A program made the translations under genes and the position numbers. DNA of 64,000 nt from Tianweitania populi (GTDB taxonomy: Bacteria; Pseudomonadota; Alphaproteobacteria; Rhizobiales; Rhizobiaceae): contig NZ_BMZQ01000001.1 of assembly GCF_014652875.1 (NCBI RefSeq), positions 1,736,001 to 1,800,000 on the forward strand, written 5' to 3'. Each line of letters starts with the position of its first letter. Position 1 is the first letter of the stretch. The notes under the pieces were generated by a model. It was not told where the DNA came from, did no database searches, and saw only the letters and a list, made by a program, of their open reading frames with translations. Of the stretch, positions 4,583 through 23,977 are shown one piece after another.

Positions 4583-5782
4583 TCAGAAGAACGCCTGCAG
4601 CCCGGTTTGCGCCCGGCCGAGGATCAGCGCATGAACGTCATGCGTGCCCTCATAGGTGTTCACCGTTTCCAGGTTCTGCGCATGACGCATGATGTGGTAG
4701 CCGATCTGGATACCGTTGCCGCCATGCATGTCGCGAGCTTGGCGGGCAATATCGAGCGCCTTGCCACAATTGTTGCGCTTGACGATGGAGATCATTTCCG
4801 GCGCCATCTTGCCTTCGTCCATCAAGCGGCCGACCCGCAACGAACCCTGTAGGCCAAGCGCGATTTCGGTCTGCATGTCCGCGAGCTTCTTCTGGAACAG
4901 CTGCGTTTGCGCCAGCGGCTTGTTGAACTGCTTGCGGTCGAGACCATACTGACGCGCGCGGTGCCAGCAGTCTTCCGCAGCCCCCATCGTGCCCCAGGAA
5001 ATGCCATAACGCGCCCGGTTCAGACAGCCGAACGGACCCTTCAGACCGGACACGTTGGGCAGCAGCGCGTCTTCGCCGACTTCCACGCCTTCCATCACGA
5101 TCTCGCCGGTGATCGAAGCCCGCAACGAAAGCTTGCCCTCGATCTTCGGCGCCGACAGCCCCTTCATGCCTTTTTCCAGCACAAAGCCGCGGATGGCATT
5201 ATCATGCGCGGCCGACTTCGCCCAAACCACGAAAACGTCGGCAATTGGCGAGTTGGAGATCCACATCTTGGAGCCGGACAGGCGATAACCGCCGTCGATC
5301 TTCTCCGCACGCGTCTTCATGCCGCCGGGATCAGAGCCCGCATCCGGCTCGGTCAAACCGAAACAGCCGATCCACTCGCCGGATGCGAGCTTCGGCAGAT
5401 ACTTCTTGCGCTGTTCTTCCGAGCCATAAGCGTGGATCGGATACATCACGAGCGAAGACTGCACGCTCATCATCGAGCGGTAACCGGAATCGACGCGCTC
5501 GACCTCGCGCGCGACCAGACCATACGACACGTAGCCGGCGCCAACGCCGCCATATTCTTCCGGGATCGTCACGCCGAGCAGGCCGGCCTCACCCATCTCG
5601 CGAAAGATCTCGGGGTCGGTCGTTTCGTCGAGATAAGCGCGCTCGATGCGCGGCGCGAGCTTGTCGGCGGCAAAAGACGCCGCGGAGTCGCGGATCATCC
5701 GCTCTTCTTCCGTCAGCTGATCCTCGAGAAGGAATGGGTCCGACCAGTTGAACGCGGCCGTTTTGGCTGAAATGTTCGACAT
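4583..5782 (-). CDS. gcdH: Glutaryl-CoA dehydrogenase
   Basis: A 399-aa acyl-CoA dehydrogenase whose closest likeness is GcdH, which oxidises and decarboxylates glutaryl-CoA to crotonyl-CoA with FAD in lysine, hydroxylysine and tryptophan breakdown. Seen are the flavin/acyl-CoA motifs [16 protein letters not shown] and [18 protein letters not shown], and the catalytic Glu in [14 protein letters not shown] (E378). Length and start ([17 protein letters not shown]) fit the family. The gene is divergent from a LysR regulator 130 nt away, which is a common arrangement for gcdH and probably controls it. Confidence 0.92.
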
Positions 5783-6825: not shown

Positions 6826-8037
6826 TTACCGCCGCGTCGCATCCGCAATCACCGCCGCAGCCTGCTCGATCGCACCGCTGCCATGCGGGATATCAAGCGC
6901 CAGCAGACCGGCCTGCATCACGGCCAGCGCACCCAGCGTCATATGCGCATTGACATAACCCATATGCGCAAGCCGCAGATGATCGTGGTGGGCAGGCTCC
7001 GTCGGCAGCGCCATGCCGAGCCCGATGCCCAGCGTCAGCCCGGCATTGTCTTCGGCCCAACGACGCAAGCGAGCAGCTCCACCATTGCCGATGCGGATGG
7101 AGGTCACTGCGTGTGACCGCGCAGCAGGATCAGTGACGTTCAACCCGATCTCGCCGCCACCCGTACCCCAAGCATCCACGGCGGCCCAAACCGCGCGCGC
7201 CAGCGTCTGGTGGCGAGCAACAACGGCGTCGACACCTTCCTCAGTGATGAGGGCAAGCGCTTCCCGCAATCCGTAAAGCTGCTGCGCCGGGGCAGTGCCG
7301 GCAAAAGCCCTATAAAATTCCGGGCTGAAACAGCGCGTGCGCCAGTTCCAGTAAGGAGTCACGAGATCGGCCTTTTCCGAAACATCCTTCGCCTTATCCG
7401 AAAACCAGACGAAGCTCAGGCCGGGCGGCATCATCAACCCCTTCTGGCTGGCGCCGATCAGAACATCGACGTCCCATTGATCGAACCGGATCTCCTCGCA
7501 GGCCACCGAAGCGATCCCGTCTACCAGCAGCAGCGCCGGATGCCTTGCGCGATCAATCGCCGCGCGCACGGCGGCAATGTCGTTGCGCACCGTCGTCGCC
7601 GTATCCGTATGCGTCATCAGAACGGCACGGATCGTATGCGCGGTGTCCTGTTCCAGCGCACGCCCAATCTGATCTGGATCGATCGACCGGCCGCGCCCGA
7701 AATCGAGCGCATCGACTTCGATACCGAGGCCGCGCAAGCTAACCGCCCAGGTCTGCCCGAAATGGCCGGTGATCGCCGACAGGGCCTTGTCGCCGCGTGA
7801 AAACACGTTGCTGCTCACGGCCTCCCAGGCGCCATGGCCATTGGCGATATACACCGCGACATGCGCCGTCGTGCTTCCCACCACCGCGCGTAGATCGCGC
7901 AAAATGCCCGGATACATCTCGTGAAGCTCGCCTTCATAGATGTTGGGCGACGGCCGGTGCATGGCGGCCAGAACACGATCCGGCACAACGGTCGGTCCGG
8001 GAATGGCAACATAAGGACGTCCGGCAGCCAGGGTCAT
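6826..8037 (-). CDS. Class V aminotransferase (serine/alanine-glyoxylate type)
   Basis: The 403-aa product is a PLP enzyme of the alanine-/serine-glyoxylate aminotransferase group: VDGIASVACEE, then the Schiff-base Lys in LIGASQKGLMMPPGLSF. The ATG at 8037 has AGAAGAGAG upstream; a GTG three codons earlier has no spaced ribosome site. It is the last gene of the long leftward operon that starts with an IclR regulator, and presumably transaminates the compound imported by the ABC system, giving a keto acid or aldehyde acid. The amino donor cannot be told from the sequence. Confidence 0.85.
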   Translation of the reverse strand: MTLAAGRPYVAIPGPTVVPDRVLAAMHRPSPNIYEGELHEMYPGILRDLRAVVGSTTAHVAVYIANGHGAWEAVSSNVFSRGDKALSAITGHFGQTWAVSLRGLGIEVDALDFGRGRSIDPDQIGRALEQDTAHTIRAVLMTHTDTATTVRNDIAAVRAAIDRARHPALLLVDGIASVACEEIRFDQWDVDVLIGASQKGLMMPPGLSFVWFSDKAKDVSEKADLVTPYWNWRTRCFSPEFYRAFAGTAPAQQLYGLREALALITEEGVDAVVARHQTLARAVWAAVDAWGTGGGEIGLNVTDPAARSHAVTSIRIGNGGAARLRRWAEDNAGLTLGIGLGMALPTEPAHHDHLRLAHMGYVNAHMTLGALAVMQAGLLALDIPHGSGAIEQAAAVIADATRR

Positions 8038-8118
8038 GGCAGGCACTCTCTTCTATGATCCAAAGCGGTCATGCCGCGCCCCGCAAGGCACGGCAAGACG
8101 GTCATCACGGCTGCATGG

Positions 8119-9171
8119 TCAGCTCAGGACCCATTCCTCGAAGCGCTCGGTCAGTTCGGCCGGATCGATCCCGAAGTTTTCCAGATCCTGCGCCACGACC
8201 TGCTCGGCATAGCGGGCATTGGTCGGCATGCGCTCGGCCTGATCCGGCGGGATCAAAGCAAGCGAGGCTGGGTTGAGCGGCCCGTCCTGTTGCGCCTTGG
8301 CAAAGCCCGCCAGCGGCGCGGCGGATGTCGCGAAAGCCACGAACTTCTTGGCGTTCTCTACATTGGGCGTGTCCTTGGCGACGACCCAGTAAGCCTTGTC
8401 GAGGATCGCCTGGTTCCACGTCATGGCAACAGGACTACCGCCATCCTGCGCGTTGAAGAAACGCGTGTTCCAGATGCCGATCATGTCGACTTCGCCATCG
8501 CGAAGCAGCTGGCTCGACTGCGCCCCGGCCGTCCACCACACCACGACATGCTCCTTGATCCGGTCGAGCGACTTGAAGGCGCGCTCCACGTCGAGCGGGT
8601 AAAGGTCCTTGGGAGCCACACCATCGGCAAGAAGCGCGATGGGAATGACGCGCGCCGCGTAGCGTTGCAGCGATCGCTTGCCGGGAAAGCGTTCCACATC
8701 CCAGAAGTCGGCCCAGCTCTTCGGCTCGTCACCGAATTTGTCCTTGCGCCAGCCCATGAGCGTGGCAAAGGCGTGCGAGCCCATGCCGTTGTTGTAAAGA
8801 CCGCCCGGATAGCTTTCTTCGAGATCTTCCAGCAGCCCGTTCTGGTTGGCGCGCACGAGCTCCGCCGCGCCCAGCGTGGTGACGTCGAACTCATAGGTGC
8901 CGGTGTTGACCTGCTGCGCCAGCTTGGCGAAGGACACCGGCGAAACGGTCTGGATCTTGATGCCGGTCTCGGCGGTGAACGGATCGAACAGGTTCGCCCG
9001 CGCCGCTTCTTCCCATTCGCCGCCCCAGGTGTTGATCGACAGCGCAGTCTCCTGCGCCCGCGCCACGAAGGGCGTGGCCAAAGGTGCCGCCGCGAGCGCC
9101 GCCGCACCGGTCAGAAACCCTCGCCGTGTCGGACGCAGGATCGTGTTCTGTCTGCTGATGATGTCGCGCAT
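8119..9171 (-). CDS. ABC importer periplasmic binding protein 1 (polyamine type, Tat signal)
   Basis: A 350-aa type 2 extracellular binding protein of the spermidine/putrescine group. The signal has twin arginines (RPTRRGFLTGAAAL) and ends near ARAQE. Preceded by GGGAGGAG, which fixes the ATG at 9171. It closely resembles binding protein 2 at 12432-13484, for example INTWGGxWxEAARAxLFDPF, WDVERFPGxRSLQRYAARV and AMTWNQ, by eye far above half the residues. It sits downstream of the transporter core genes and a RidA-like gene, so the operon holds a second copy with probably a different ligand range. Confidence 0.88.
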   Translation of the reverse strand: MRDIISRQNTILRPTRRGFLTGAAALAAAPLATPFVARAQETALSINTWGGEWEEAARANLFDPFTAETGIKIQTVSPVSFAKLAQQVNTGTYEFDVTTLGAAELVRANQNGLLEDLEESYPGGLYNNGMGSHAFATLMGWRKDKFGDEPKSWADFWDVERFPGKRSLQRYAARVIPIALLADGVAPKDLYPLDVERAFKSLDRIKEHVVVWWTAGAQSSQLLRDGEVDMIGIWNTRFFNAQDGGSPVAMTWNQAILDKAYWVVAKDTPNVENAKKFVAFATSAAPLAGFAKAQQDGPLNPASLALIPPDQAERMPTNARYAEQVVAQDLENFGIDPAELTERFEEWVLS

Positions 9172-9211
9172 TGCTCTCCTCCCTAAAGAACTGCGTTCGG
9201 TTGTCTTGCTG

Positions 9212-9604
9212 TCAGTCCGTCGCACAGACCATGATCATTTCGACCTTGAGGTCGGGGCTGGCGAGACCGGCGCTGAAGCAGGCGCGTGCGGGCGGCGTGA
9301 TGCCGCCGACCCACTCGTCCCACACCCCGTTCATTTCAGCGTAATCGCTCATATCCGGCAGGATAATCGCCACGAACAGGAGCTTGCTCTTGACGCTGCC
9401 GATCTCGGCCAGGCGCAAATCCGCCTTGTCGAGCAACTGCCGCGTTTGCTCGGCGGTGCTGAGCGACGGGTCGTAGGGCGCTTTCGGCGTGACGGCGAAA
9501 TAGCCGGTGCCGTGATGGGTCACGGCAAGGCTGGCGCGATTGCCGGTACCGAAATAGGAGATCATGTCTGTAAGCGTATTCATGGAAACTTCGTTCGAAC
9601 TCAT
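9212..9604 (-). CDS. RidA/YjgF-family protein
   Basis: A 130-aa Rid-family protein. The conserved PPARACFSAGL (Arg of the active site) and VEMIMVCA (Glu) near the C-terminus are present. Rid proteins hydrolyse reactive enamines and imines made by PLP enzymes, which fits an operon ending in an aminotransferase. The start codon overlaps the stop of the ABC ATPase gene as ATGA, so translation is probably coupled; an internal Met at residue 8 is an alternative start. The exact subfamily is not resolved. Confidence 0.85.
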   Translation of the reverse strand: MSSNEVSMNTLTDMISYFGTGNRASLAVTHHGTGYFAVTPKAPYDPSLSTAEQTRQLLDKADLRLAEIGSVKSKLLFVAIILPDMSDYAEMNGVWDEWVGGITPPARACFSAGLASPDLKVEMIMVCATD

Positions 9605-10662
9605 TTGGCGATGAGGTACACTGCGTCAGGCGTCCAGCTGATGCAGCAATCCTGGTTTTCCTTGATGATGACGACATCGGCGCCGAGCACCCGCACCCGC
9701 ATGGTGAGATCGCCGACCTTGCCGATCACCAGCGCGTTGTCGCCATAGTTCACGATCGTCTCGACCTTCATCTGCGCGTTGCGGCGGCCCTCAATCGGGT
9801 TGCGCGACAGGCGCATATGTTCGGGGCGGATCATCAGCGTCACGCCCTGCCCCTTCTTGGCCTTGTCGGTCGGCGCGTATTCGACCTCGCCGAGATGCGC
9901 GGCACTGGCAGTGCGTGCAACCGGATCCGTTACGACCGCCTCGATCAGGTTGCTTTCGCCGATGAAGCCCGCGACGAAGCGTGTTTCCGGCTTGTGATAG
10001 AGGTCGAGCGGCGCGGCTACCTGGTTGATGCGTCCGCCTTCGAACACCACGATCCGATCCGACATCGACATGGCTTCTGTCTGGTCATGCGTCACGAAGA
10101 TCGTGGTGACGCCGAGCGCGCGCTGGATGCGCTTGATCTCGATCTGCATCTGCTCGCGCAAATTCTTGTCGAGCGCGCCGAGCGGTTCGTCAAGCAGCAG
10201 CAGCGACGGTTCGAACACCAAAGCGCGGGCCAAAGCGACGCGCTGCTGCTGACCGCCGGACAGCTCCTTTGGGTATCGGTGGCCGAAATCCCGCAAGCCC
10301 ACCAGCTCCAGCATTTCTTCCGCCCGCTTCAAGCCGGCGGCGCGCTTAACACTGCGCATCTGCAGCGGGAAATACACGTTCTCTGCCGCCGTCTTATGCG
10401 GAAACAGCCCGTAGTTCTGAAACACGATACCGATATTGCGCTCGTGCGGCGCCAAGCCCTGCAAAGGGCGGCCATCGATCTCCACGCTGCCGGTGGTCGC
10501 CTTTTCGAAGCCGGCGATGATCATCAGCGTCGTCGTCTTGCCCGAGCCACTCGGCCCCAGAAAGGTGACGAACTCGCCCTTGGCGGCGCTTAGATTGACA
10601 TCGTTCAGCGCCACGAACTGGCCGTAGCTCTTGTTGATGCCTTTGAGGTCGAGATAGCTCAT
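9601..10662 (-). CDS. ABC importer ATPase, PotA-like
   Basis: A 353-aa ABC ATPase. Walker A GPSGSGKTTT, signature LSGGQQQRVALARAL, Walker B LLLLDEPLGALD and the H-loop FVTHDQ are intact, followed by a C-terminal TOBE-like domain. AGGAAG lies before the ATG at 10662 (MSYLDLKGI). Family members energise import of putrescine, spermidine or related amines. It follows the two permease genes and overlaps the RidA-like gene by 4 nt. Confidence 0.9.
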   Translation of the reverse strand: MSYLDLKGINKSYGQFVALNDVNLSAAKGEFVTFLGPSGSGKTTTLMIIAGFEKATTGSVEIDGRPLQGLAPHERNIGIVFQNYGLFPHKTAAENVYFPLQMRSVKRAAGLKRAEEMLELVGLRDFGHRYPKELSGGQQQRVALARALVFEPSLLLLDEPLGALDKNLREQMQIEIKRIQRALGVTTIFVTHDQTEAMSMSDRIVVFEGGRINQVAAPLDLYHKPETRFVAGFIGESNLIEAVVTDPVARTASAAHLGEVEYAPTDKAKKGQGVTLMIRPEHMRLSRNPIEGRRNAQMKVETIVNYGDNALVIGKVGDLTMRVRVLGADVVIIKENQDCCISWTPDAVYLIAK

Positions 10663-10705
10663 TTTTCTTCCTGATCGGCCGGCCGATGGCGGCGTCTGAA
10701 TGGGG

Positions 10706-11497
10706 TCAGGCGGCTTGGACGCGTGGACGGCGGTTGCGCAGGGCGGCAACCAGCCTTGGCCCCACCAGCCCGAGCAGCACGAGAGCGAACAACAGCGTCG
10801 AGATCACCGCGATCACCGGATCGGCCTCCTGCCGGATGCTGTCGAACATCTTGCGCGGCAGCGTTTCGGCGTTGCGGCCCGAAATGAAGATCGACACCAC
10901 CGTTTCATCGAAGGAATGGATGAAGGCAAACAGCGCGCTGATGATCAAACCGGGGCGCAAAATTGGCAGCGTCACATGGATGAAAGTCTTGGTCGGGCTC
11001 GCCCCCAAACTCATCGCCGCGCGCTCCAGCGTCCGGTCGAAGCCCTTGAGGTTCGCGGACAGAACGAGAAAGGCGATCGGCACTGCGAGTGCCGTATGGG
11101 CCAGCACCACACCGATATGCGTATGCACGATGCCCATCGCGCCGAAATAGGAGTAATAGCCGACCGCCATTACGATCGACGGCACCGCCAGCGGCATCAG
11201 CATCATGAGGTCGGCGATCGAGCGGCCGCGAAACTGGTGGCGCACCAAGGCAAAGGTCGCGGGCACCACAAGCAGCATAGTCAGCACGGTTGTGGCGGTG
11301 GCGATGATGATGCTGTTCCAAGTTGGGATCAGCCAGCTCGGATCGGAGAAATAAGCCTGGTAATAGCCGAGCCCATAGCCTGGCGGCGGGAATTGCAACG
11401 AGCGGGCCGTGGAGAACGACATCGGCACCACGATCACCAGCGGCGCGGCGATGAAGATGACGACGACAACGCCGAGCCATTTCATGAAACGTGTCAT
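10706..11497 (-). CDS. ABC importer permease, PotC-like
   Basis: A 263-aa inner-membrane permease with about six membrane spans and the EAA coupling loop (SLGASPTKTFIHVTLPILRPG). Strong likeness to PotC/PotI in its N-terminal span and PMSFSTARSLQFPPPGY segment. It starts 6 nt after the preceding permease gene and belongs to the polyamine-type importer. Confidence 0.9.
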   Translation of the reverse strand: MTRFMKWLGVVVVIFIAAPLVIVVPMSFSTARSLQFPPPGYGLGYYQAYFSDPSWLIPTWNSIIIATATTVLTMLLVVPATFALVRHQFRGRSIADLMMLMPLAVPSIVMAVGYYSYFGAMGIVHTHIGVVLAHTALAVPIAFLVLSANLKGFDRTLERAAMSLGASPTKTFIHVTLPILRPGLIISALFAFIHSFDETVVSIFISGRNAETLPRKMFDSIRQEADPVIAVISTLLFALVLLGLVGPRLVAALRNRRPRVQAA

Positions 11498-11503
11498 GGC
11501 AGA

Positions 11504-12349
11504 TCACCCCCAGAGTTTGTCGAGGCCGAAATGACGGTGATAGATCGTGAGGATCACCATGGTGAAAACGAGCAGCACCATGGCCAGCGCCGAGCCCATG
11601 CCAAAGGCCAGGAACTCGTCGAGCTGGGTGCCGATCAAACCGGCGATCATCTGCTCGCGCGGGCTGCCGAGCAGCACCGGCGTCACGTAGAAGCCGAGGC
11701 AGATCACGAACACCAGCACGCAGCCGTTGGCGATGCCGGGCGCCGTCAGCGGCAGATAAACGTGGCGCAGCAGCGAACCGCCGCGCGCGCCAAGACTTTC
11801 GGCCGAGCGCACCAGCACCGGGTCGATCTTCCGCATCACCGAATAGATGTTCATGATCATGTAAGGCGCCAGGATGTGGACCATTGCCAGCGTCGAGGAA
11901 AAGCGCGTGAACAAGAGCTGCGGCGGATTGGTGATGCCGACAGCCTGGAACAGCCAAACCAGCGGCCCGTTTGTGCCGAGAAGCACCATCCAGGCGTAGG
12001 TGCGCACGAGGAAGCTCGTCCAGAAGCTCATCGTCACCAGCAGCAGGATCAGCATGGCCGTGCGCTGGCTGCTGACCGACATCAGGTAAGCCAGCGGGTA
12101 ACCCACCAGAAGGCAGCAGAGCGTCACGAAGCCGGCCGTCAGAAACGTGTTGATGAACACCTTCTGGTAAAGCGTACCGGTCAGTGCCCGCTCATAGTTG
12201 GCGAAGGTCAGGCGCGGTTCGGTGAAGCTCATCACGGCCACGTCGATCAGCGGCACGACGAAGAACACGACAAGAAACACGGCGAGCGGCGTCAACAGGA
12301 GCCACGGCCACAGGTTCTTTCGTTCGGTCATGTTGGAAAGGCCGGTCAT
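11504..12349 (-). CDS. ABC importer permease, PotB-like
   Basis: An inner-membrane permease of about 281 aa with the EAA loop SLGARGGSLLRHVYLPLTAPG and PotB-like spans (LLTPLAVFLVVFFVVPLIDV). The start is uncertain: ATG at 12349 (MTGLSNMTERK) is chosen, with ATG at 12331 and a TTG at 12391 as alternatives; none has a clear ribosome site. It lies between the second binding protein and the PotC-like gene. Confidence 0.85.
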   Translation of the reverse strand: MTGLSNMTERKNLWPWLLLTPLAVFLVVFFVVPLIDVAVMSFTEPRLTFANYERALTGTLYQKVFINTFLTAGFVTLCCLLVGYPLAYLMSVSSQRTAMLILLLVTMSFWTSFLVRTYAWMVLLGTNGPLVWLFQAVGITNPPQLLFTRFSSTLAMVHILAPYMIMNIYSVMRKIDPVLVRSAESLGARGGSLLRHVYLPLTAPGIANGCVLVFVICLGFYVTPVLLGSPREQMIAGLIGTQLDEFLAFGMGSALAMVLLVFTMVILTIYHRHFGLDKLWG

Positions 12350-12431
12350 CTCTGCCGTTATCGGTTCGAGCTTGGAAATAAGCCGCCGCAATCAAAGCGC
12401 GGCGGCAGTCTTGGGTGGGCCGCTCAGCGGC

Positions 12432-13484
12432 TCAGCTTGCGAGCCATTCTTCAAACCGCTCGGAAGCTTCCGCCGGATCACCACCGAAGTTGGCCATGTC
12501 CTGTTCGAAGGTCTGGGAATAGTTGGCTGGCGCGGTCGGCATGCGCGCTGCCGCATCCGCCGGAATGAATTCGTTCGATGCCGGGTTCAGCGCGCCATAG
12601 TCTGCCTGCATCACGAACTCAGCCAGCGGCTTTGCGCTGGTAGCAAAGGCGATGAACTTCTTGGCGTTCTCGGCATTCGGCGTGTCTTTCGCCACAACCC
12701 AATAAGCGCGGTCGATTTCGCCCTGGTTCCACGTCATGGCCACAGGCGCCCCGGCCTTTTCAGCCTCGAAATAACGGCCGTGCCAGATGCCGATCAGGTC
12801 CACTTCGCCGTCGCGCAGGATCTGCGTCGATTGTGCACCGGCCGTCCACCACACGCGGACGTGATCCTTGATGCGGTCAAGCGATTCAAAGGCGCGGTCG
12901 AGATCGAGCGGGTAAAGATCCTTCACTTCAACGCCATCCGCCAGAAGCGCGATCGGCAGCACGCGTGCGGCATAGCGCTGAAGCGACCGGCCGCCGGGGA
13001 AGCGCTCGACGTCCCAGAACTCGGCCCAGGTTTTCGGCCCTTCTTTGATCTTGTCCGTGCGCCACGCCATCACGGTCGCGAAAGCATGCGACGCAACGCC
13101 GTTCTCGAACAACCCGCCTTCATAAGGCGCTTCGAGGTCTTCGATGATGCCGGCCTCGTTGGCGCGCACCAGCTCGCCCCCGCCAAGCGTGGTGATGTCG
13201 AACTCATAGGTGCCCGTATGCACCTGCTGCGCCAGCTTGGCGAAGGAGACCGGCGACAGGGTCTGGATCTTGATGCCGGTTTCGGCCGTGAACGGATCGA
13301 ACAAATGGGCACGCGCCGCCTCGTCCCACGGCCCGCCCCAGGTGTTGATGTAAAGAACATTGTCCTCAGCGCGCGCGACATAAGGCGCGGCAAGCGTGGA
13401 AGCGGCCGCCAGGCCGGTTGCCTTCAGAAAAGTGCGTCGGCTCGGCGTCATTAGGGACGCCGGATCAAGCGTGAATTTGGGCAC
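12432..13484 (-). CDS. ABC importer periplasmic binding protein 2 (polyamine type, Tat signal)
   Basis: A 350-aa binding protein with a Tat signal (TPSRRTFLKATGLAA, cleavage near ARAED). It starts with GTG at 13484 behind GAGGAGA. It is a near paralogue of the protein at 8119-9171, with the same length, and heads the transporter part of the operon directly before the permeases, so it is probably the main receptor. The ligand site cannot be assigned from sequence; the family binds polyamines and related cations. Confidence 0.88.
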   Translation of the reverse strand: MPKFTLDPASLMTPSRRTFLKATGLAAASTLAAPYVARAEDNVLYINTWGGPWDEAARAHLFDPFTAETGIKIQTLSPVSFAKLAQQVHTGTYEFDITTLGGGELVRANEAGIIEDLEAPYEGGLFENGVASHAFATVMAWRTDKIKEGPKTWAEFWDVERFPGGRSLQRYAARVLPIALLADGVEVKDLYPLDLDRAFESLDRIKDHVRVWWTAGAQSTQILRDGEVDLIGIWHGRYFEAEKAGAPVAMTWNQGEIDRAYWVVAKDTPNAENAKKFIAFATSAKPLAEFVMQADYGALNPASNEFIPADAAARMPTAPANYSQTFEQDMANFGGDPAEASERFEEWLAS

Positions 13485-13517
13485 GTCCAGTTCTCCTCTT
13501 TTATTATGCTTGGCCAG

Positions 13518-14492
13518 TTAGTTTGATGGTCGGAACGTCGCCTCGTAGAGCCGAAGCCAGTTCTTGTGGGTGATCTTGGCGACCTCCTCTTCCGAGAAGC
13601 CCACCGCGCGCAGGCCGCCGGGAATGACGTTCATGTCTTCCACGGTCTGGAACCAATCCGGCGGCGGCGCCTTCAGCGGCTTGCCGGCGGCACTTGCGCC
13701 ATATTGAACGCCGCGCGTCCAGCGACCCTGCCGCATCCAGGCATAATCGGGTGCCGTGAAGTTGTGGCTGCGATCGGTGCCGATCGCGACGGAATCGATG
13801 CCGGCGATATCGACGGTTCTAGCGACCATCCCGCACCAGGCTTCGATCGACTTGCAGTAGTCATCGCCGGTGATGTTGCGGTAAGCGGCACAGCCGATCA
13901 CGCCGCCTGTTTGGCCCAACGCCTTGATGACATCATCCGACTTGTTGCGCTTGTGGTCGAACAGCGAACGCGCATTGGCATGCGTCACAGCGATCGGCTT
14001 TTCCGATGCCTCGATCGCGTCCAGCGTGGTGCGGTCGCCGACATGGCTGCAATCCACGAGAATACCGGCGCGGTTCATCTCCAGAACCACTTCCTTGCCG
14101 AAGCGCGCGAGGCCGGAATCCTCCACCTCGTAGCAGGAACCGCCGAGCTCGTTCTGGTTGTTGTAGGTCAACTGCACGACGCGCACGCCGAGTTCGGCAA
14201 ACATCTCGACCAGCCGGATGCGGCCTTCAAACAGGTTGGCGTTCTGGTAGCCGAGGATCACGGCAACCTTGCCTTCCGCGCCTATGCGGGCGATCTCGGC
14301 GGCCGTCGTGCCGATCTCGGCGACATCCGAATTGTCGCGCACCAGATCGCGCCAAAGGCCAAGCGCATCCAGCGATTCCAGCGCGCCTTCCCAAAAGCCG
14401 CAAGTCACCACCACGCCACCGACGCCAGCGCGCTGCAGCGATTGAAAAGCCTCGCGATCGAAGTGACCGCATTGCAGACCGTCGATGATCAT
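13518..14492 (-). CDS. M19-type (renal/membrane) dipeptidase-like hydrolase
   Basis: A 324-aa amidohydrolase-fold protein of peptidase family M19. Metal-site marks ILVDCSHVGDRT and AVTHANARS and the late GTDRSHNF are present. The usual N-terminal HxD motif (as in DGHNDLP) is replaced by IDGLQCGHFDRE, which is seen, to my memory, in a subgroup whose substrates are unknown. Its ATG overlaps the stop of the 242-aa gene by 4 nt. In this operon it may cut an amide or dipeptide bond in the imported compound. Confidence 0.82.
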   Translation of the reverse strand: MIIDGLQCGHFDREAFQSLQRAGVGGVVVTCGFWEGALESLDALGLWRDLVRDNSDVAEIGTTAAEIARIGAEGKVAVILGYQNANLFEGRIRLVEMFAELGVRVVQLTYNNQNELGGSCYEVEDSGLARFGKEVVLEMNRAGILVDCSHVGDRTTLDAIEASEKPIAVTHANARSLFDHKRNKSDDVIKALGQTGGVIGCAAYRNITGDDYCKSIEAWCGMVARTVDIAGIDSVAIGTDRSHNFTAPDYAWMRQGRWTRGVQYGASAAGKPLKAPPPDWFQTVEDMNVIPGGLRAVGFSEEEVAKITHKNWLRLYEATFRPSN

Positions 14493-15217
14493 GGGTTCGC
14501 GCCCTTTTCTTGAGTTTGCTGCGAGGCGGGTGCGGCCAGGAACGACACATCGGTGTCATCGTCATTGTCCTTGCGGCCGGTGACACTGCCGTCTTCGTTG
14601 ACGATCATCGGCCCGGCATGGCGACGTGACACCACCGTGTCGGCGGCCAGCGCCTTCTTGGCGTGGTGATAAACCCGCCACCAGAGATCGGCCTCGATCG
14701 GCGTGCCGTTGCACAGGAGATCCCACAAAACCGGATCATCCTCGGCAACCCTGCCGGTCAGCGGCTGCGGCTTGGCGGTGACAACGCCACCCTCTTCGAC
14801 GGTGACCATCAGCCCAGTGCGTCCGCCCAACGCTTCCGCAATCTTCACCTCAGCGGGTTCGACCGCATTGCGAACGGTGATCCGCGCCGCGCCATGCACG
14901 GCTATGAGTTCGCCGAGCAGATCGAGCAGGCTCGGCACCACGACCCAGCCATGCTGGTTGCCGGCGTCGAGCTCCAAAGCCGCACCGTTCTCGGCCGTGA
15001 TCGTGATTGCTTCCGGCTTCGCATCGGCCAGCAGGGCGAAGTGCTCCTCCAGGGCGGCGAAACCGCCGAGGCCGAGCTTCTGCGAAAGCATCACGAAGTC
15101 CTGCATGGCCAGAAAGAAGCCCTTGGGCAAAGCCGTCAGCGACAGGATGCGTTCGGACATGAGCCGCATTTCGCGCGGCATGATTTTGAGCGTGGTCATG
15201 GATGCGGGATCACTCAT
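14489..15217 (-). CDS. 242-aa protein of unknown function in the IclR operon
   Basis: The ATG at 15217 (MSDPASMTTLKIMPREM) overlaps the stop of the 572-aa gene as ATGA, which decides the start although the frame stays open further upstream. The protein has no signal peptide or membrane span. Its middle is mixed helix and strand (MQDFVMLSQKLGLGGFAALE), and the C-terminus is polar (GRKDNDDDTDVSF). I do not recognise a family. It is locked by 4-nt overlaps between the 572-aa protein and the dipeptidase, so the three are probably made in fixed ratio and may act together. Confidence 0.75.
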   Translation of the reverse strand: MSDPASMTTLKIMPREMRLMSERILSLTALPKGFFLAMQDFVMLSQKLGLGGFAALEEHFALLADAKPEAITITAENGAALELDAGNQHGWVVVPSLLDLLGELIAVHGAARITVRNAVEPAEVKIAEALGGRTGLMVTVEEGGVVTAKPQPLTGRVAEDDPVLWDLLCNGTPIEADLWWRVYHHAKKALAADTVVSRRHAGPMIVNEDGSVTGRKDNDDDTDVSFLAAPASQQTQEKGANP

Positions 15218-16932
15218 GCGAGAACCGGTTCGGGCGGATAGAACCAAGGCCCGGTATGCCCGGAGCGAATGTCCTGTGGCGTCGGAGCGCCATGGTAAAG
15301 CACGCCGCGCAGGTTGCGGTTCAGGAAGTCGCGTGTCTTGTCGATGCCGTGGATGGCGACATTGAGCAGCCGCACCAGATCGATCGGCACAAAAGCGTCC
15401 GAATTGATGTTGGCATGCGGCGTGTGATAGCGGCGCCCGCGCAGGCTTTGGATGCGCGACAGGATGAAGCGATGTTGCGGATGCTTCATCAAGAAGCGCG
15501 CAACGGTCAGATCCGGGTCCGACGCTTCGAGATCGTCGGCCAGCGTCTGGATGCCGCCGCAAATATCAAGGCCGAGATCCAGCGCATCCGGCACTTCCTC
15601 GCGGGCACCGCGGCGCGGCTCTTCCGCCGTTTCGGACTTGTACCAGATGTAGCGATAAGCATCCGGACCGGACAGGTCGGTGCGCAGCGCCCAATCATAC
15701 TCCGCACGGATCGTGGCAAGCAGATCAGCTGCCGTCTCAGCCGGCTGGACGTTGAACTCGTCCGGCGCATCGATTTCCAGCATCGCCGCGTCAGATACAT
15801 CCGGCACCAGTTCGATCAGCAGCGACAGGAAGGTTTCGTAAGCTTCCGGGCTGAGCGTCGTTTCAAACTGCCGCGCCAGTGCATCGAAAGCTCGAACATG
15901 GCGCGTTCCATCCACCAGACCGGTGCGCAACAGCGCTTCCAGCGAGCCAGCGACCTTCTCGAGATCATCCGCAACTGTCTGGCTCGACGTAAAAGCCTCA
16001 TAGACCATCTTGTCCTGCCGCCGGAACGTGATCGCGCGCCGCACAAGGCCAAGCAGGTCTTCGACCCGCGTATCGCCGGCATCGAGCTTCAGCGACCTTG
16101 CCTCGGCAATGGCATTTTCCCGCGCACTTAATATCGCGTCGATCAGGCGGGGATGCTTGTGCGCAAAGAAGATCAGCCCCAGCGCCGAGCCATTGCCGAC
16201 GCCAAGATAACGACGGATCGCCGGATCGAGCTTCACGGCCTCAGTACACTTGAGCGCAGCCAGATGCTCCACAAGGTCACAGGAATATTCGCGCATCAGA
16301 TAGGCCGTCAGCAATTGCGCCTGCAGCACGCCGCCGAGCGGATGATCGCGGCCGAGCGACGGGAACGAGCGCGTCCCGAAAGTGCCGTTGCCATCCAGAC
16401 CAGTGTTGCGCATGAGGTAGCAGACCTCGGACAAGGCCGAGACTTCCGGCTGGTGCCCGTCGGCTAGTGCTGCCAGTGTCTGATCGAACACCCGCATGGA
16501 GCGGTTCGAGCGGCACCAGATCAGCGCGTTCGGCGTTGCCCGGCCGTTATAGAGCTTCGGCAGTTCGACACGCGCGGACTCGATATCGGCTTCCGTCGCC
16601 GGCCCTTCGTTCAGCGTGCCCATCATGTCCCAGGCCCGGCCGATGATGCGTCCGGTGCGCGCCGTGCGGCTTGGCGGAAAGGAGAAACCGATAAATGAGA
16701 ACTCGCGATCCGGCGTCTTGATCGAATACACCACCGTGCCGGACGCATTGGCATCGATATCAAAGCGCTGCACCGAAATGTCCCAGCGCTCGCGCACCAT
16801 CTTGTTCATGAACGCACGCGCCCCGCTGACGCGGCTCGGCTGTAGGGCGCCCAGCGCTTTCGGCTTCATCAGCACATCGCTCGAACGCGGCGCGATGGCA
16901 TTCGCGGGCAGAGAATTCTGGGTCACACTCAT
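15214..16932 (-). CDS. 572-aa protein of unknown function in the IclR operon
   Basis: A long cytosolic protein with no signal or membrane span; it overlaps the IclR gene upstream and the 242-aa gene downstream by 4 nt each. Visible segments that look conserved in style are YSIKTPDREFSFIGFSFPPS, NALIWCRSNRSMRVFDQTL, MRNTGLDGNGTFGTRSF and RRYHTPHANINSDAFVPIDL. His, Asp and Cys residues in these could form an active site, but that is a guess. I know of no named domain. The context (importer, dipeptidase, aminotransferase) suggests an enzyme of the same pathway. Confidence 0.8.
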   Translation of the reverse strand: MSVTQNSLPANAIAPRSSDVLMKPKALGALQPSRVSGARAFMNKMVRERWDISVQRFDIDANASGTVVYSIKTPDREFSFIGFSFPPSRTARTGRIIGRAWDMMGTLNEGPATEADIESARVELPKLYNGRATPNALIWCRSNRSMRVFDQTLAALADGHQPEVSALSEVCYLMRNTGLDGNGTFGTRSFPSLGRDHPLGGVLQAQLLTAYLMREYSCDLVEHLAALKCTEAVKLDPAIRRYLGVGNGSALGLIFFAHKHPRLIDAILSARENAIAEARSLKLDAGDTRVEDLLGLVRRAITFRRQDKMVYEAFTSSQTVADDLEKVAGSLEALLRTGLVDGTRHVRAFDALARQFETTLSPEAYETFLSLLIELVPDVSDAAMLEIDAPDEFNVQPAETAADLLATIRAEYDWALRTDLSGPDAYRYIWYKSETAEEPRRGAREEVPDALDLGLDICGGIQTLADDLEASDPDLTVARFLMKHPQHRFILSRIQSLRGRRYHTPHANINSDAFVPIDLVRLLNVAIHGIDKTRDFLNRNLRGVLYHGAPTPQDIRSGHTGPWFYPPEPVLA

Positions 16933-17693
16933 TTTGATGCTTGTTTCCCTTGTTGAAGCTCAGTGATCGCCTCGGCAGCCGCGCGCAGCGGCGCTTCGAA
17001 GCTCGCGAGCTCGAACCGGGTTTGCGGCATGATCAGCGAAACGGTGGCGGAGCAGCGCCCGCGCAGATCGAAGATCGGCGCCGCCATCGCGATCACGCCG
17101 CTCTGCGTGTAGCCGGAGGACACCGCGTAGCCGTTCTGGCGGGTTGCCTCGAGCACCACCTCGTCCGCCAGAGGCTCATCATTGGCACGCAGCCGCGCGA
17201 GCATGCCCTCATCCGCGAAGGCCGTCAGCACGCGGCCCGAGGCCGAGCCTTCCAGGGACATGGTCGTGCCGATCTTCTGTTCGGCCCGCAGCAGGCTTTG
17301 CGATCCAACACGCGCAACAATGCGCGGCAAGCCGCCTTCGAGCACCGCCAAGGACGCGGTTTCTCCGACCTCCTGCACCAACTTTTCCAACACCGAGCGG
17401 GCGCGCGTGCCGAGATCGGCCTGTTCAAGGGCAGCATCGGCGATGCGGCAGGCATGCATGGACAAGCGATAGCGCATGTCGTCGTCCTGCTCGACCCAGC
17501 CAGCTTCCATCAGCGTCAGCAGCCGCTGATACGCAGTCGGCCGCGACAACTGCATGGCGGCGGCGATCTCCGGCAGCTTCATGCTGCGCGAACTGTTCGC
17601 CAGCACATCCAGCACGGCCATGGTCTTGAGCACGGTGCTCAAGGCCCGAACCCCACCTTCGCTCTGTATTCGCTTAGAATATGCAGTATCCAT
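16929..17693 (-). CDS. IclR-family transcription regulator
   Basis: A 254-aa IclR-type protein: N-terminal winged helix (KLPEIAAAMQLSRPTAYQRL), then the effector domain (GSASGRVLTAFADEG; GVIAMAAPIFDLRG). I place the start at the ATG at 17693 (MDTAYSKRIQSEGG); a palindrome covers this codon. It is the first gene of the operon and overlaps the 572-aa gene by 4 nt, so the regulator is co-expressed with its likely targets. The effector is probably the pathway substrate or a product. Confidence 0.88.
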   Translation of the reverse strand: MDTAYSKRIQSEGGVRALSTVLKTMAVLDVLANSSRSMKLPEIAAAMQLSRPTAYQRLLTLMEAGWVEQDDDMRYRLSMHACRIADAALEQADLGTRARSVLEKLVQEVGETASLAVLEGGLPRIVARVGSQSLLRAEQKIGTTMSLEGSASGRVLTAFADEGMLARLRANDEPLADEVVLEATRQNGYAVSSGYTQSGVIAMAAPIFDLRGRCSATVSLIMPQTRFELASFEAPLRAAAEAITELQQGKQASK

Positions 17694-17697
17694 ACTG
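17684..17697. promoter_or_regulatory. Palindrome over the IclR start codon, likely autoregulatory operator
   Basis: CAGTAT and ATACTG flank two bases, a perfect 6-2-6 inverted repeat that includes the chosen ATG of the IclR gene. IclR proteins bind short AT-rich palindromes of about this size. Binding here would block transcription of the whole operon. Confidence 0.5.
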
Positions 17698-17800
17698 AAT
17701 ACGGTCTTGTTGAATGGGCCCGCTGTCAAGCGCCTCAACCGTGCCAACGGCGGCTAGGAAGCGTCCTTTCGTCCTATCTGTCTGGAAAAGCTTGAGATAT

Positions 17801-17946: not shown

Positions 17947-18531
17947 TTGGATTTTCAGTTTGATATCGGCGCTCGTTTGAAGGCGATGCGCTCGGCCGCC
18001 GGCCTGTCCCAGCGCCAGCTGGCGGAGCGCGCAAACGTGCCGCATGCGCAGATCTCGAATGTCGAGAAGAACAAGGTCAGCCCGTCCGTGTCCACCCTGC
18101 GCCGCATCCTCAGCGGCGTCGGCGTCAGCATGGCGGACTTCTTTGAGCCGGAACGCGAAGTGCCGCCCGGCCCGTTCTTCGAAGCGGATCAGCTGCTTGA
18201 TCTAACATCAAAAATTGCCGTAAACGCCATCGGCGAAGGCACTGGCCGCATGGCTTTCCGCCAGATCGGCGATGCGCGCAGCCACAATCTGCAGATCCTC
18301 CACGAAGTCTATGAGCCGGGCGCCGATACGGGCGAAACCCTGTTGCAGCATCCCTCGTCGGAAGGCGGCTATGTCGTGGAAGGCGAGTTGGAGGTGACGG
18401 TGGATTCCGAGATTCGCGTGTTGCGCGCCGGCGAAGCCTATCTGTTCGATAGCCGCCAGCCGCATCGCTTCCGCAACCCGTCGGACAACCGAACGATCGT
18501 CATCTCCGCCTGCACACCACCCTACCTGTGA
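17947..18531 (+). CDS. XRE-family regulator with cupin domain (PuuR-like)
   Basis: A 194-aa regulator: helix-turn-helix at residues about 8-62 (GLSQRQLAERANVPHAQISN) and a C-terminal cupin domain (YEPGADTGETLLQH; YVVEGELEVTVD; RQPHRFRNPS). This is the layout of PuuR, the putrescine repressor. A TTG start is used with GGAAGGG about 11 nt upstream. It precedes a GabT-type aminotransferase and faces the amine-importer operon, so it probably senses the imported amine or a breakdown product. Confidence 0.85.
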   Translation: MDFQFDIGARLKAMRSAAGLSQRQLAERANVPHAQISNVEKNKVSPSVSTLRRILSGVGVSMADFFEPEREVPPGPFFEADQLLDLTSKIAVNAIGEGTGRMAFRQIGDARSHNLQILHEVYEPGADTGETLLQHPSSEGGYVVEGELEVTVDSEIRVLRAGEAYLFDSRQPHRFRNPSDNRTIVISACTPPYL

Positions 18532-18553
18532 CGGTCACAATCTTGAACAAGAC

Positions 18554-18573
18554 TTGCTCATTATTTTGAGCAA
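18554..18573. promoter_or_regulatory. Inverted repeat before gabT, likely XRE-cupin operator
   Basis: TTGCTCA and TGAGCAA are perfect 7-nt arms around 6 nt. A second partial repeat, GAGCA/TGCTC, follows at once, and the half-site TGCTCA recurs at 17869-17874 before the XRE gene. A shared operator for the PuuR-like regulator is the simplest reading. Confidence 0.45.
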
Positions 18574-18611
18574 CGATATGCTCTCCTTCGATCGTACCTA
18601 GGAGAGCCGTC

Positions 18612-19910
18612 ATGTCGTTGTCCCAGCAGTTGCAGAGCCGCCAGAAAGCCGCCGTCGCGGGGGGCGTCGGCACACGATCCATTTACGCCGAGCGCGCGCT
18701 GAACGCCGAACTGTGGGACGTGGAAGGCAAGCGTTACATCGATTTCGCTGCCGGCATCGCCGTCAACAACACCGGCCACCGCCACCCCAAGGTGATCGGC
18801 GCCGTGCAGGCGCAGGTCGAGCATTTCACCCATACCTGCTTCCACGTCGCACCCTATGAAGGCTACATCCGCCTGGCCGAGCGCCTGAATGCGATGGCGC
18901 CCACCGGTGGCGAAAACCGCACAATGCTGGTCACCACCGGCGCCGAAGCCGTCGAGAACGCCGTCAAGATCGCCCGCGCTTACACCAAGCGTCCAGCCGT
19001 CATCGCCTTTTCCGGCGCCTTTCACGGCCGCACGATGCTGGGCATGGCGCTGACCGGCAAGGTCGCGCCCTACAAGAAGAACTTCGGCCCGTTCCCGGCC
19101 GAGATCTACCACGCGCCCTTCCCCAACACCTACACCGGCCCATCGGAAGACGAAGCCTTTGCCGGCCTCGAGCGGCTGTTTGCAGCCGACATCGATCCGG
19201 ACCGCGTTGCAGCCTTCATTATCGAGCCCGTACAGGGCGAAGGCGGCTTCAACGTCGCGCCCTTCACCTTCCTCAAGCGCCTGCGCGAACTGGCCGACCG
19301 CCACGGCATCCTGCTGATTGCCGACGAAGTGCAGACCGGCATGGCGCGCACCGGCAAGATGTTCGGCTTCGAACATGCCGGCGTGAAGCCCGACCTCATC
19401 ACCATGGCCAAAGGCCTCGCCGGCGGCTTCCCGCTTTCGGCCGTCACCGGCCGCGCCGAAATCATGAACGCCGCTCATCCCGGCGGTCTTGGCGGCACCT
19501 ATGCCGGCAATCCGCTCGCCGTTGCCGCCGCCAATGCGGTGCTCGACGTGATCGAGGAAGAGCAGCTGTGCGAACGCGCCACGATGATTGGGGAGCGCAT
19601 CACGTCGCGCCTCCAAGCCTTGGCTGAGCGCCAGGGCATGGAGCGCATCGGCCATGTGCGCGGCCTCGGCGCCATGGTCGCCTTCGAACTCGTGCATGAC
19701 CGCGCCACCCAGGAAGCGGCACCCGAACTCACGGCCAGCATCGTCGCCGAAGCGGAAAAGCGCGGCCTGATCCTGTTGTCTTGTGGCACGCGCTTCAACG
19801 TCATCCGCATCCTCACGCCGCTCACCATCGGCGAGGACACGCTGGAAGAAGGTCTGGAGATCCTAGAAGCTTCGGTGGAAGCCGCCTTTTCGGGCCACGC
19901 CAACCACTAA
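18612..19910 (+). CDS. gabT: 4-aminobutyrate-type aminotransferase (GabT/PuuE-like)
   Basis: A 432-aa class III PLP aminotransferase. Seen are FSGAFHGRTMLGMALTG, the cofactor Asp in LLIADEVQTGMARTG, and the PLP Lys in TMAKGLAGGFPL. Length and motifs are typical of 4-aminobutyrate:2-oxoglutarate aminotransferase, which gives succinate semialdehyde; related enzymes take other omega-amines. AGGAGA precedes the ATG. It follows the PuuR-like regulator, supporting a role in amine breakdown. The precise amine is not certain. Confidence 0.88.
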   Translation: MSLSQQLQSRQKAAVAGGVGTRSIYAERALNAELWDVEGKRYIDFAAGIAVNNTGHRHPKVIGAVQAQVEHFTHTCFHVAPYEGYIRLAERLNAMAPTGGENRTMLVTTGAEAVENAVKIARAYTKRPAVIAFSGAFHGRTMLGMALTGKVAPYKKNFGPFPAEIYHAPFPNTYTGPSEDEAFAGLERLFAADIDPDRVAAFIIEPVQGEGGFNVAPFTFLKRLRELADRHGILLIADEVQTGMARTGKMFGFEHAGVKPDLITMAKGLAGGFPLSAVTGRAEIMNAAHPGGLGGTYAGNPLAVAAANAVLDVIEEEQLCERATMIGERITSRLQALAERQGMERIGHVRGLGAMVAFELVHDRATQEAAPELTASIVAEAEKRGLILLSCGTRFNVIRILTPLTIGEDTLEEGLEILEASVEAAFSGHANH

Positions 19911-20034
19911 ACCCCGAGCGATCGGCCGGATGGCTCAAGCCTTTGCGCCCTCTGGCTGATCGCGCCCACACATTGCGTCGTGCAGCCTGCTGCGCGATAC
20001 CTGTCTTGTTTCCATTGGCGAAAGGAAAGTGGCC

Positions 20035-21585: not shown

Positions 21586-21647
21586 GCACACCGCCTTCCA
21601 CAAATTTGCGCGAACACGTCGCGCCGGGCGGCACGGTGAAATCTGCT

Positions 21648-23512: not shown

Positions 23513-23977
23513 TCAGCCGCGACCGCGATAAGGCGGCACGCCCTGTTCCGGGATCCACACGCCTTCTGGCGCCGCACCGCTTTGCCAGAACACATCGATC
23601 GGAATGCCGCCGCGCGGATACCAGTAGCCGCCAATCCGAAGCCAGCGCGGCTGGAGAAAGTCCACCAGCCGGCGCGCGATCGACACGGTGCAGTCCTCGT
23701 GGAAGGCGCCATGATTGCGGAAGGAGCCGAGGTAAAGCTTCAGCGACTTCGATTCCACCAGCCAGTCGCCGGGCACGTAATCGATCATCAGATGCGCGAA
23801 ATCCGGCTGACCGGTCATCGGGCACAGCGAGGTGAATTCCGGCGCGGTGAAGCGAACGACATAGGAAACGTCGGCCTGCGGATTGGCCACCCGTTCAAGT
23901 TCCGCCTCTTCCGGGCTTTGCGGCAACGTCGTCGCGCTGCCCAACTGCTTGAGATTGTCGTAGATCGTTTCGGTCAT
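23513..23977 (-). CDS. queF: NADPH-dependent 7-cyano-7-deazaguanine reductase QueF
   Basis: A 154-aa short-form QueF that reduces preQ0 to preQ1 in queuosine synthesis. The catalytic Cys is in [14 protein letters not shown] (C52) and the QueF signature is [21 protein letters not shown] without its last residues altered. I looked for a preQ1 riboswitch upstream and saw none. The gene is convergent with recQ and lies 42 nt downstream of the zur stop, possibly on the same transcript. Confidence 0.93.

Follow-up and report, generated by a model that had tools for sequence, protein, structure and literature searches.

A conserved IclR-linked gene cluster of Tianweitania populi with features of a nitrogen-compound import and catabolism operon

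Results

Organization of the operon

The window, that is, the whole 64,000-nucleotide stretch of T. populi DNA analysed here, contains eleven minus-strand genes, all open reading frames, spanning 17747–6826 in the order iclR, U1, U2, M19, binding protein 1, two permeases, ATPase, Rid, binding protein 2 and class V aminotransferase. The features are as follows:

17666–17702, minus strand: putative IclR operator, tandem 17-bp palindromes 20 bp apart, GTATTC-N5-GAATAC type, over the iclR start
16929–17693, minus strand: IclR-family regulator (PF01614 and PF09339), present in 24/24 related loci
15214–16932, minus strand: U1, 572 aa, of an unnamed family
14489–15217, minus strand: U2, 242 aa, shortened LDH2-fold protein and DUF3726 kin, judged by model fold and profile-profile comparison
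13518–14492, minus strand: M19-family protein without HxD and Glu metal ligands
12432–13484, minus strand: periplasmic binding protein 1 (SBP_bac_8)
12382–12406, minus strand: GC-rich stem-loop between the genes of binding protein 1 and the first permease
11504–12391, minus strand: PotB-like permease (BPD_transp_1)
10706–11497, minus strand: PotC-like permease (BPD_transp_1)
9601–10662, minus strand: PotA-like ATPase, ATG at 10662 (ABC_tran, 125 bits)
9212–9604, minus strand: Rid-family protein (PF01042), nearest solved proteins 3kjj, 3k12 and PSPTO_0102
8119–9171, minus strand: periplasmic binding protein 2 (SBP_bac_8), 69% identical to receptor 1
6826–8046, minus strand: class V aminotransferase, BhcA-like (Aminotran_5, 73 bits; NF045640)

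A previous sequence-only reading had placed at least nine linked leftward genes with four ATGA overlaps at 6826–17693; its linkage is borne out by the eleven genes, and all four overlaps could be read in the DNA (iclR/U1 at 16929–16932, U1/U2 at 15214–15217, U2/M19 at 14489–14492 and ATPase/Rid at 9601–9604). The remaining intergenic gaps were 6 to 82 bases when the preferred starts were used. The start of iclR is unsure, with an ATG at 17693 and the open frame beginning with TTG at 17747. Because of the one strong stem-loop inside the operon (12406–12382), the expression level may differ within it.

Conservation and the putative operator

The locus counts were taken from tblastn, since the first gene caller had mis-called shadow ORFs. 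The loci L089, L090 and L094, which lie on contigs of the same lengths as L032, L031 and L036, were left out of the counts, and U1 of L069 was left out of the tree as the coordinates used contained a stop. The iclR, U1, U2 and M19 genes co-occurred in 24/24 related loci of other genomes and stood together in 37/37 clade A loci with the window counted in, although the clade A counts are not independent because of the near-copies L033/L049, L043/L046 and L045/L048/L051, and some absences are not real because the stretches L034, L039, L041 and L093 stop at a contig edge. This recurrence indicates that the grouping is more than chance. Many hosts were rhizobia, and others belonged to Rhodobacterales and one to Halomonadaceae; the cluster is common to some soil and marine bacteria.

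The operator pair was found at the iclR start in 35/37 clade A, 4/9 clade B and 0/27 clade C loci, and a scan of 1,507,833 reversed control bases gave 0 matches; in one operator scan the window scored as a miss, its own upstream slice having stopped short of its sites. In clade B, 2/6 operator pairs sit 6–8 kb away from iclR. Single sites were not enriched genome-wide (7 and 7 vs 6 and 5 in control). The gene conservation and the common operator support the earlier view of an uptake and breakdown operon, which proves conserved, and judged by the operator it is predicted to form a single regulatory unit.

U1, U2 and the M19-family protein

Neither profile scans of U1 nor a structure search with its AF2 model (pLDDT 82, pTM 0.86; best Foldseek E-value against PDB 0.14) linked it to a Pfam or NCBIfam family above threshold or to a convincing PDB relative. 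In the family scans U2 likewise passed no Pfam or NCBIfam cut-off; it reached 13.2 bits against Pfam Ldh_2 (cut-off 38.8) and had no PF12525 (DUF3726) match in the Pfam scan. The predicted structure of U2 shows a dehydrogenase fold across 179 residues, the structure-search matches being what we take to be LDH2 proteins. Judged by a profile-profile probability of 93.5, U2 is kin of DUF3726.

The M19 protein matches Pfam Peptidase_M19 (PF01244) at 242 bits (cut-off 26), and its nearest solved chain was 2i5g_A (183 bits), which we take to be PA5396, whose gene presumably lies beside dgcAB. In M19 enzymes the metal is held by an H-x-D motif near the N terminus and by a bridging Glu. Across 53/53 aligned rows, comprising this protein and 52 relatives, HxD was absent, replaced mostly by LQC/LQY, and the bridging-Glu position was Gln; both later His, the Arg and the Asp were retained. 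The second M19 protein of the genome keeps the ligands (HND motif and Glu), and chain 3id7_A also has Glu at the bridging position. The amide cleavage previously assigned to an M19-like dipeptidase is therefore unsupported, and the label “membrane dipeptidase” that records give to this branch is probably misleading.

Importer, Rid protein and class V aminotransferase

The nearest solved chains to receptor 1 were 4i1d and 4eq7, followed by the GABA sensor and the agropine and mannopine proteins; 4eq7 is presumably a GABA receptor with functional roles for its Arg and Asp. The Rid protein scored 54.4 bits against PF01042 (cut-off 27.3) and 29.6 bits against the subfamily model TIGR00004, under its cut-off of 106.25; its gene was found in 29/37 clade A loci. 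The class V enzyme reached 276 of 650 bits for the BhcA model (aspartate-glyoxylate aminotransferase), far under cut-off. The gene for class V transamination, formerly proposed as a core step, is present, but the core role is weakened because this gene and binding protein 2 occur in just 5/37 clade A loci.

Divergent and downstream partner enzymes

The cluster extends on the divergent side at 17947–21585, which had been missed earlier, and a further candidate partner lies downstream:

17947–18531, plus strand: XRE-cupin regulator, divergent, a frequent partner (23/37 clade A loci)
18612–19910, plus strand: GabT-type class III aminotransferase (15/37 clade A loci)
20029–21585, plus strand: ThDP-dependent 2-oxo acid decarboxylase-like enzyme (30/37 clade A loci)
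4583–5782, minus strand: glutaryl-CoA dehydrogenase-like enzyme, only close copy in the genome

GabT passed the GABA transaminase model TIGR00700 (582 bits, cut-off 506.65), and no 5-aminovalerate model (an enzyme presumably named DavT) was among the matches listed. The ThDP enzyme scored 716 bits (cut-off 363) with PRK07586, a model named acetolactate synthase large subunit, and its closest solved proteins were benzoylformate decarboxylases; its gene was near 0/9 clade B loci. The glutaryl-CoA dehydrogenase-like protein matched 3gnc at 627 bits and, among the matches listed, the NCBIfam glutaryl-CoA model at 220 of 470 bits. Its gene was near 5/37 clade A loci (in one case as a fragment at the edge of a contig) and 0/9 clade B loci. 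A glutarate CoA-transferase-like gene was also observed. The linked dehydrogenases in L033, L075 and L084 had SSADH as their best NCBIfam model, below cut-off, and in the three loci of S. meliloti type a class III aminotransferase occurs with SSADH.

Several observations speak against the pathway proposed below. Glutaryl-CoA dehydrogenase was not found near 32/37 and an SSADH-like gene not near 29/37 clade A loci; the class III aminotransferase and SSADH of the S. meliloti-type loci, as well as clade B with neither ThDP enzyme nor glutaryl-CoA dehydrogenase nearby, would fit a C4 ending equally; GabT passes a GABA model; and the distant operator pairs of clade B and the unenriched single sites count on the same side.

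Discussion

A proposed pathway and its alternatives

The recurrence of ThDP decarboxylase, gabT, semialdehyde dehydrogenase and glutaryl-CoA dehydrogenase points to a route through an omega-amino acid with glutarate or succinate as its end product. Our preferred reading, held tentatively and rated somewhat short of an even chance, is IclR-controlled import followed by conversion of an N-heterocycle or N-substituted amino acid to a dicarboxylate, probably glutarate, with U1-U2-M19 as the entry enzyme. A PotABCD-type ABC importer under IclR control would take up a zwitterionic or cationic nitrogen compound, and U1, U2 and the M19-like protein, acting jointly, would as a best guess open a cationic N-heterocycle or lysine-like compound. 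The imine so formed could be hydrolysed by Rid to a 2-oxo acid, which the ThDP enzyme would decarboxylate to an aldehyde; the semialdehyde dehydrogenase and the GabT-type aminotransferase may then carry the omega-amino acid to the dicarboxylate, and glutarate would enter central metabolism through CoA transfer and glutaryl-CoA dehydrogenase. We infer the joint action of the three proteins, the first step, the step order, the C6-to-C5 skeleton and the substrate class. The substrate is probably pipecolate-, picolinate- or lysine-like and not a dipeptide, because the sister module described below accompanies betaine importers in some genomes. It is possible, although we lean against it, that U1-U2-M19 constitutes a novel type of enzyme that opens or reduces rings, made up of U1 from outside the known families, an LDH2-fold partner of reduced length and an M19 barrel lacking its binuclear metal site, one branch serving a pyridinium betaine and this branch another heterocycle.

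A rather unlikely C4 version, in which the compound would yield GABA, GabT and succinate-semialdehyde dehydrogenase would lead to succinate, and the ThDP enzyme would decarboxylate 2-oxoglutarate or a near relative, agrees with the GabT score, the SSADH model of the three linked dehydrogenases, the relation of receptor 1 to the GABA sensor and polyamine receptors, and the aminotransferase-SSADH-RidA-RidA genes of the S. meliloti cluster; it leaves the recurrent glutaryl-CoA dehydrogenase and the glutarate CoA-transferase-like gene unexplained. Cleavage of an amide or dipeptide by M19, with transamination of the product by the class V enzyme, draws on the Pfam match and the retained His, Arg and Asp, but the replaced HxD and Glu and the rarity of the class V gene make it improbable.

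We also regard opine breakdown, in which enzymes would split the secondary amine of an imported opine, as improbable: the agropine and mannopine relatives of receptor 1 and the many rhizobial hosts fit it, whereas general family scans recognised no opine oxidase in the window and the cluster extends to Rhodobacterales and to one member of the Halomonadaceae. The sister module U1-DUF3726-M19 might suggest a second operon for homarine or picolinate with a different importer; this is very improbable, as the clades split with 100/99 support in the tree and neither the KGSADH-type dehydrogenase and LysR found beside U1-M19-DUF3726 nor LDH2, a BCCT protein, a betaine receptor or a LysR of the clade C type (47 bits at best) was assigned near the 37 clade A loci, window included.

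The cluster gives a common context to three orphan families, namely U1, DUF3726 and the M19 branch without usual metal ligands. If the entry enzyme does open N-heterocycles, it would add a recycling route for betaines or alkaloids made by plants and algae. Because S. meliloti, a symbiont amenable to genetics, has a related cluster on pSymB, the substrate should be accessible by simple gene removal.

Comparison with known systems

Among the open-licence papers searched, none describes a pathway that has these genes, in agreement with the earlier statement; nor did we find any paper on DUF3726, any relevant paper on PA5396 or anything on a membrane dipeptidase encoded next to genes for dimethylglycine and betaine. 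The importer shares its domain make-up (ATPase, two permeases, PotD-like receptor) and receptor family with PotABCD polyamine/GABA importers, but no subunit attains the Pot cut-off among the matches listed (potA subfamily 333 of 355.6 bits, PotB 156 of 348, PotC 127 of 326, PotD 45 of 582). Similarly, the M19 protein belongs to the Pfam family of the renal dipeptidase-type enzymes and keeps their two His, the Arg and the Asp, but differs in the substituted HxD and Glu ligands, while the U2 model shares its fold with LDH2 (Ldh_2) oxidoreductases of ~340 aa vs 242 aa.

The clade C cluster, listing LysR, a KGSADH-like dehydrogenase, M19, U1, DUF3726 and often LDH2, is presumably the homarine operon (names homABCDR), said to have been described by Ferrer-Gonzalez and co-workers in 2026. 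It has homologous U1, M19 (mostly 38–42% identical, 50% in L066) and adjacent DUF3726/U2, with the same metal-ligand loss in M19, and differs in importer, regulator and dehydrogenases, in Rid (2/25 loci) and in the operator type (0/27). The module often lies beside an oxoglutarate-semialdehyde-type dehydrogenase and in some genomes adjoins betaine importers and sarcosine-oxidase-type or N-methyl-amine genes, a context that had been missed; Mgd we take to be N-methylglutamate dehydrogenase.

The S. meliloti pSymB cluster (L075) presumably corresponds to six SMb2038x tags, a guess from map position. According to passages of a published study, smb20383 is induced when dme is mutated; it is among four examples given there with a histidine or spermidine/putrescine transport annotation. 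For trigonelline, this cluster was rejected as the sole route, because a passage in PMC4207669 states that trigonelline supports growth of the wild type but not of the strain lacking pSymA, whereas the cluster is on pSymB. After the importer the cluster differs by a class III aminotransferase, SSADH and two RidA genes, without ThDP or class V enzyme within the stretch examined; up to that point the order iclR-U1-U2-M19-receptor-permeases-ATPase is identical, and its U1 is 51% identical.

Organization and conservation of the U1 operon

The window comes from a genome of 4.29 Mb in 16 contigs. The sequence-only reading had proposed an operon for uptake and breakdown of a nitrogen compound, and this was borne out as a real and conserved gene set. 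The gene families guessed there matched the family-model assignments, and the four ATGA overlaps were confirmed in the operon DNA. The arrangement is as follows.

Features of the operon and its surroundings
17747–6826, minus strand: 11 genes in the order iclR, U1, U2, M19, receptor 1, two permeases, ATPase, Rid, receptor 2 and class V aminotransferase
17666–17682 and 17686–17702: two 17-bp palindromes, 20 bp apart, at the iclR start
Divergent side, opposite strand to the operon: XRE-cupin regulator, then GabT-type aminotransferase, then ThDP enzyme (2-oxo acid decarboxylase-like)
Beyond the class V gene: LysR gene and glutaryl-CoA dehydrogenase-like gene

A serine hydrolase (Beta-lactamase Pfam family, PF00144; 3209–4510) adjoins the glutaryl-CoA dehydrogenase, and an ordinary RecQ helicase (21306–23498) and QueF-type preQ1 synthase (23513–23977) flank the cluster. 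A strong stem-loop (12382–12406) separates receptor 1 from the first permease; stem-loops at such places are common when the receptor transcript is maintained in excess.

When U1 was used as query over genome contigs, 24 loci were obtained. All 24 carried iclR, U1, U2 and M19, while receptor 1 and each permease were found in 23 and Rid in 19. The ATPase was present in 22/24 at ≥45% identity, a count that leaves out the 41% match of locus L041, which is another gene; L039 and L041 end before the ATPase. The named hosts were Rhizobiaceae, Phyllobacteriaceae, Xanthobacteraceae (Pseudolabrys), Roseobacteraceae, Paracoccaceae and one Halomonadaceae. At any identity, U1 occurred in 63/394 genomes of the family sample, 40/297 of the order sample, 53/385 of the class sample and 31/398 of the phylum sample, counts that include the window's own genome and, in the phylum sample, two matches of only E ~5e-4. 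It was absent from two genomes of the window's own genus.

In a tree of 72 U1 proteins, clade A (37 rows including the window, ≥60% identity) and clade C (26 rows, roughly 28–36%) each separated with 100/99 support, and the nine rows of B (about 40–52%) adjoined clade A. U1 and DUF3726 are fused in one annotated gene of 814 aa (L081:9968–12412), and the U1 frame extends to 792 aa in L067:7893–10271. A third arrangement is seen at locus L066, where the neighbours of a clade C U1 are PotABC-like genes, a receptor gene and an M19 gene whose product shares 50% identity with that of the window. Distant-type U1 was also seen in four very small alphaproteobacterial genomes of 1.2–1.4 Mb (G707, G882, G934 and G971), which suggests its use by streamlined plankton.

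A putative operator at iclR

The best single site reached at least 10 of 12 in 35/46 upstream regions from clade A and clade B loci, as compared with 22/2300 shuffles. The tandem pair was found at 35/37 clade A loci, in each case no more than 200 bases from where the iclR match begins, and at 6/9 B loci (four near iclR, two at 6–8 kb); it was found at none of 27 clade C loci and had no match over 1,507,833 bases of reversed control. Single sites showed no enrichment across the whole genome. At L047, a clade A locus, the pair lies 90–125 bases ahead of the matched part of iclR, and is thus not merely coding sequence. At L036, where receptor 2 and class V are relocated, operator-like sites at 5075 and 5114 (L036:5075–5130) stand just before the receptor match ending at 5057, which suggests that this accessory pair is part of the same regulon. 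The predicted operator implies joint control of the operon genes.

The M19 protein, the importer and the proposed pathway

The residues of M19 proteins have roles known from renal dipeptidase work. HxD was missing in all 53 aligned M19 rows, mostly replaced by LQC or LQY, and Glu was changed to Gln, with both later histidines, Arg and Asp retained. The nearest solved chain, 2i5g_A, named an amidohydrolase, shows the same residue loss in the printed alignment, and the second M19 protein of the window's genome retains HND and Glu. Because HxD and Glu are lost, a binuclear zinc dipeptidase is unlikely on these residue roles, and with it the dipeptide-amide cleavage proposed earlier.

The closest solved structures to receptor 1 were 4i1d and 4eq7, followed by the GABA sensor and the agropine and mannopine receptors. 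In receptor 1 the W-x-G-R motif retains its Arg, but the position held by Asp in 4eq7 and the GABA sensor is occupied by Ala. In those proteins the Arg and Asp presumably bind the ligand carboxylate and amine, respectively; if so, the ligand of receptor 1 would carry a carboxylate and perhaps lack a free primary amine.

The most economical reading is that U1, U2 and M19 would carry out an entry step on a cationic nitrogen compound, which may be followed by hydrolysis of an imine, decarboxylation and omega-transamination towards glutarate or succinate. Searches of open-licence full texts, at the level of listings and passages, returned no description of this operon.

Glutarate or succinate as the pathway ending

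The partners at the 37 clade A loci were the ThDP gene (30), XRE (23), GabT (15), an SSADH-like gene (8), a GlcD-like FAD gene (7) and receptor 2 with class V (5). Glutaryl-CoA dehydrogenase occurred at five (the window, L034 as a contig-edge fragment, L047, L053 and L091), its position varying by locus and falling inside the gabT/ThDP gene row in L053 and L091. Given one or two copies in a genome of 4.3 Mb, the probability of finding the gene by chance within 20 kb at 5/37 loci was 8e-7 to 2e-5, a rough figure as the loci are related. The window's genome has no second close copy of its glutaryl-CoA dehydrogenase gene, the next best being 35% identical. The best model for the L047 CoA-transferase was succinate-glutarate CoA-transferase (495 of 750 bits), and the window's genome carries, outside the cluster, a CoA-transferase with 56% identity to it and a gene sharing 77% identity with the SSADH-like gene of L033. 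In place of the clade A partners, 3/9 B loci, S. meliloti among them, carry class III aminotransferase, SSADH and RidA genes. On these data, glutarate has the stronger support as the end product in clade A, and succinate may be the ending too, particularly in B.

Comparison with the sister cluster

In the stretches around 25 clade C loci, U1 was accompanied by M19 (22/25), a KGSADH-like dehydrogenase (18/25), LysR of one type (16/25), LDH2 (14/25), a glycine betaine receptor (6/25), BCCT (5/25) and sarcosine-oxidase-alpha-like genes (5/25). The best models for the dehydrogenase, below cut-off, were 2,5-dioxovalerate and oxoglutarate-semialdehyde dehydrogenase. The annotated examples vary among themselves: one has BCCT and sarcosine oxidase genes, another a betaine importer with sarcosine oxidase genes, another a betaine importer alone, another a branched-chain-type importer with a trimethylamine methyltransferase-family gene, and another DMSP genes with neither betaine importer nor sarcosine oxidase. 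Clade C is probably the homarine operon. Homarine catabolism involves Mgd, according to a passage of PMC13390433, which credits a 2026 paper.
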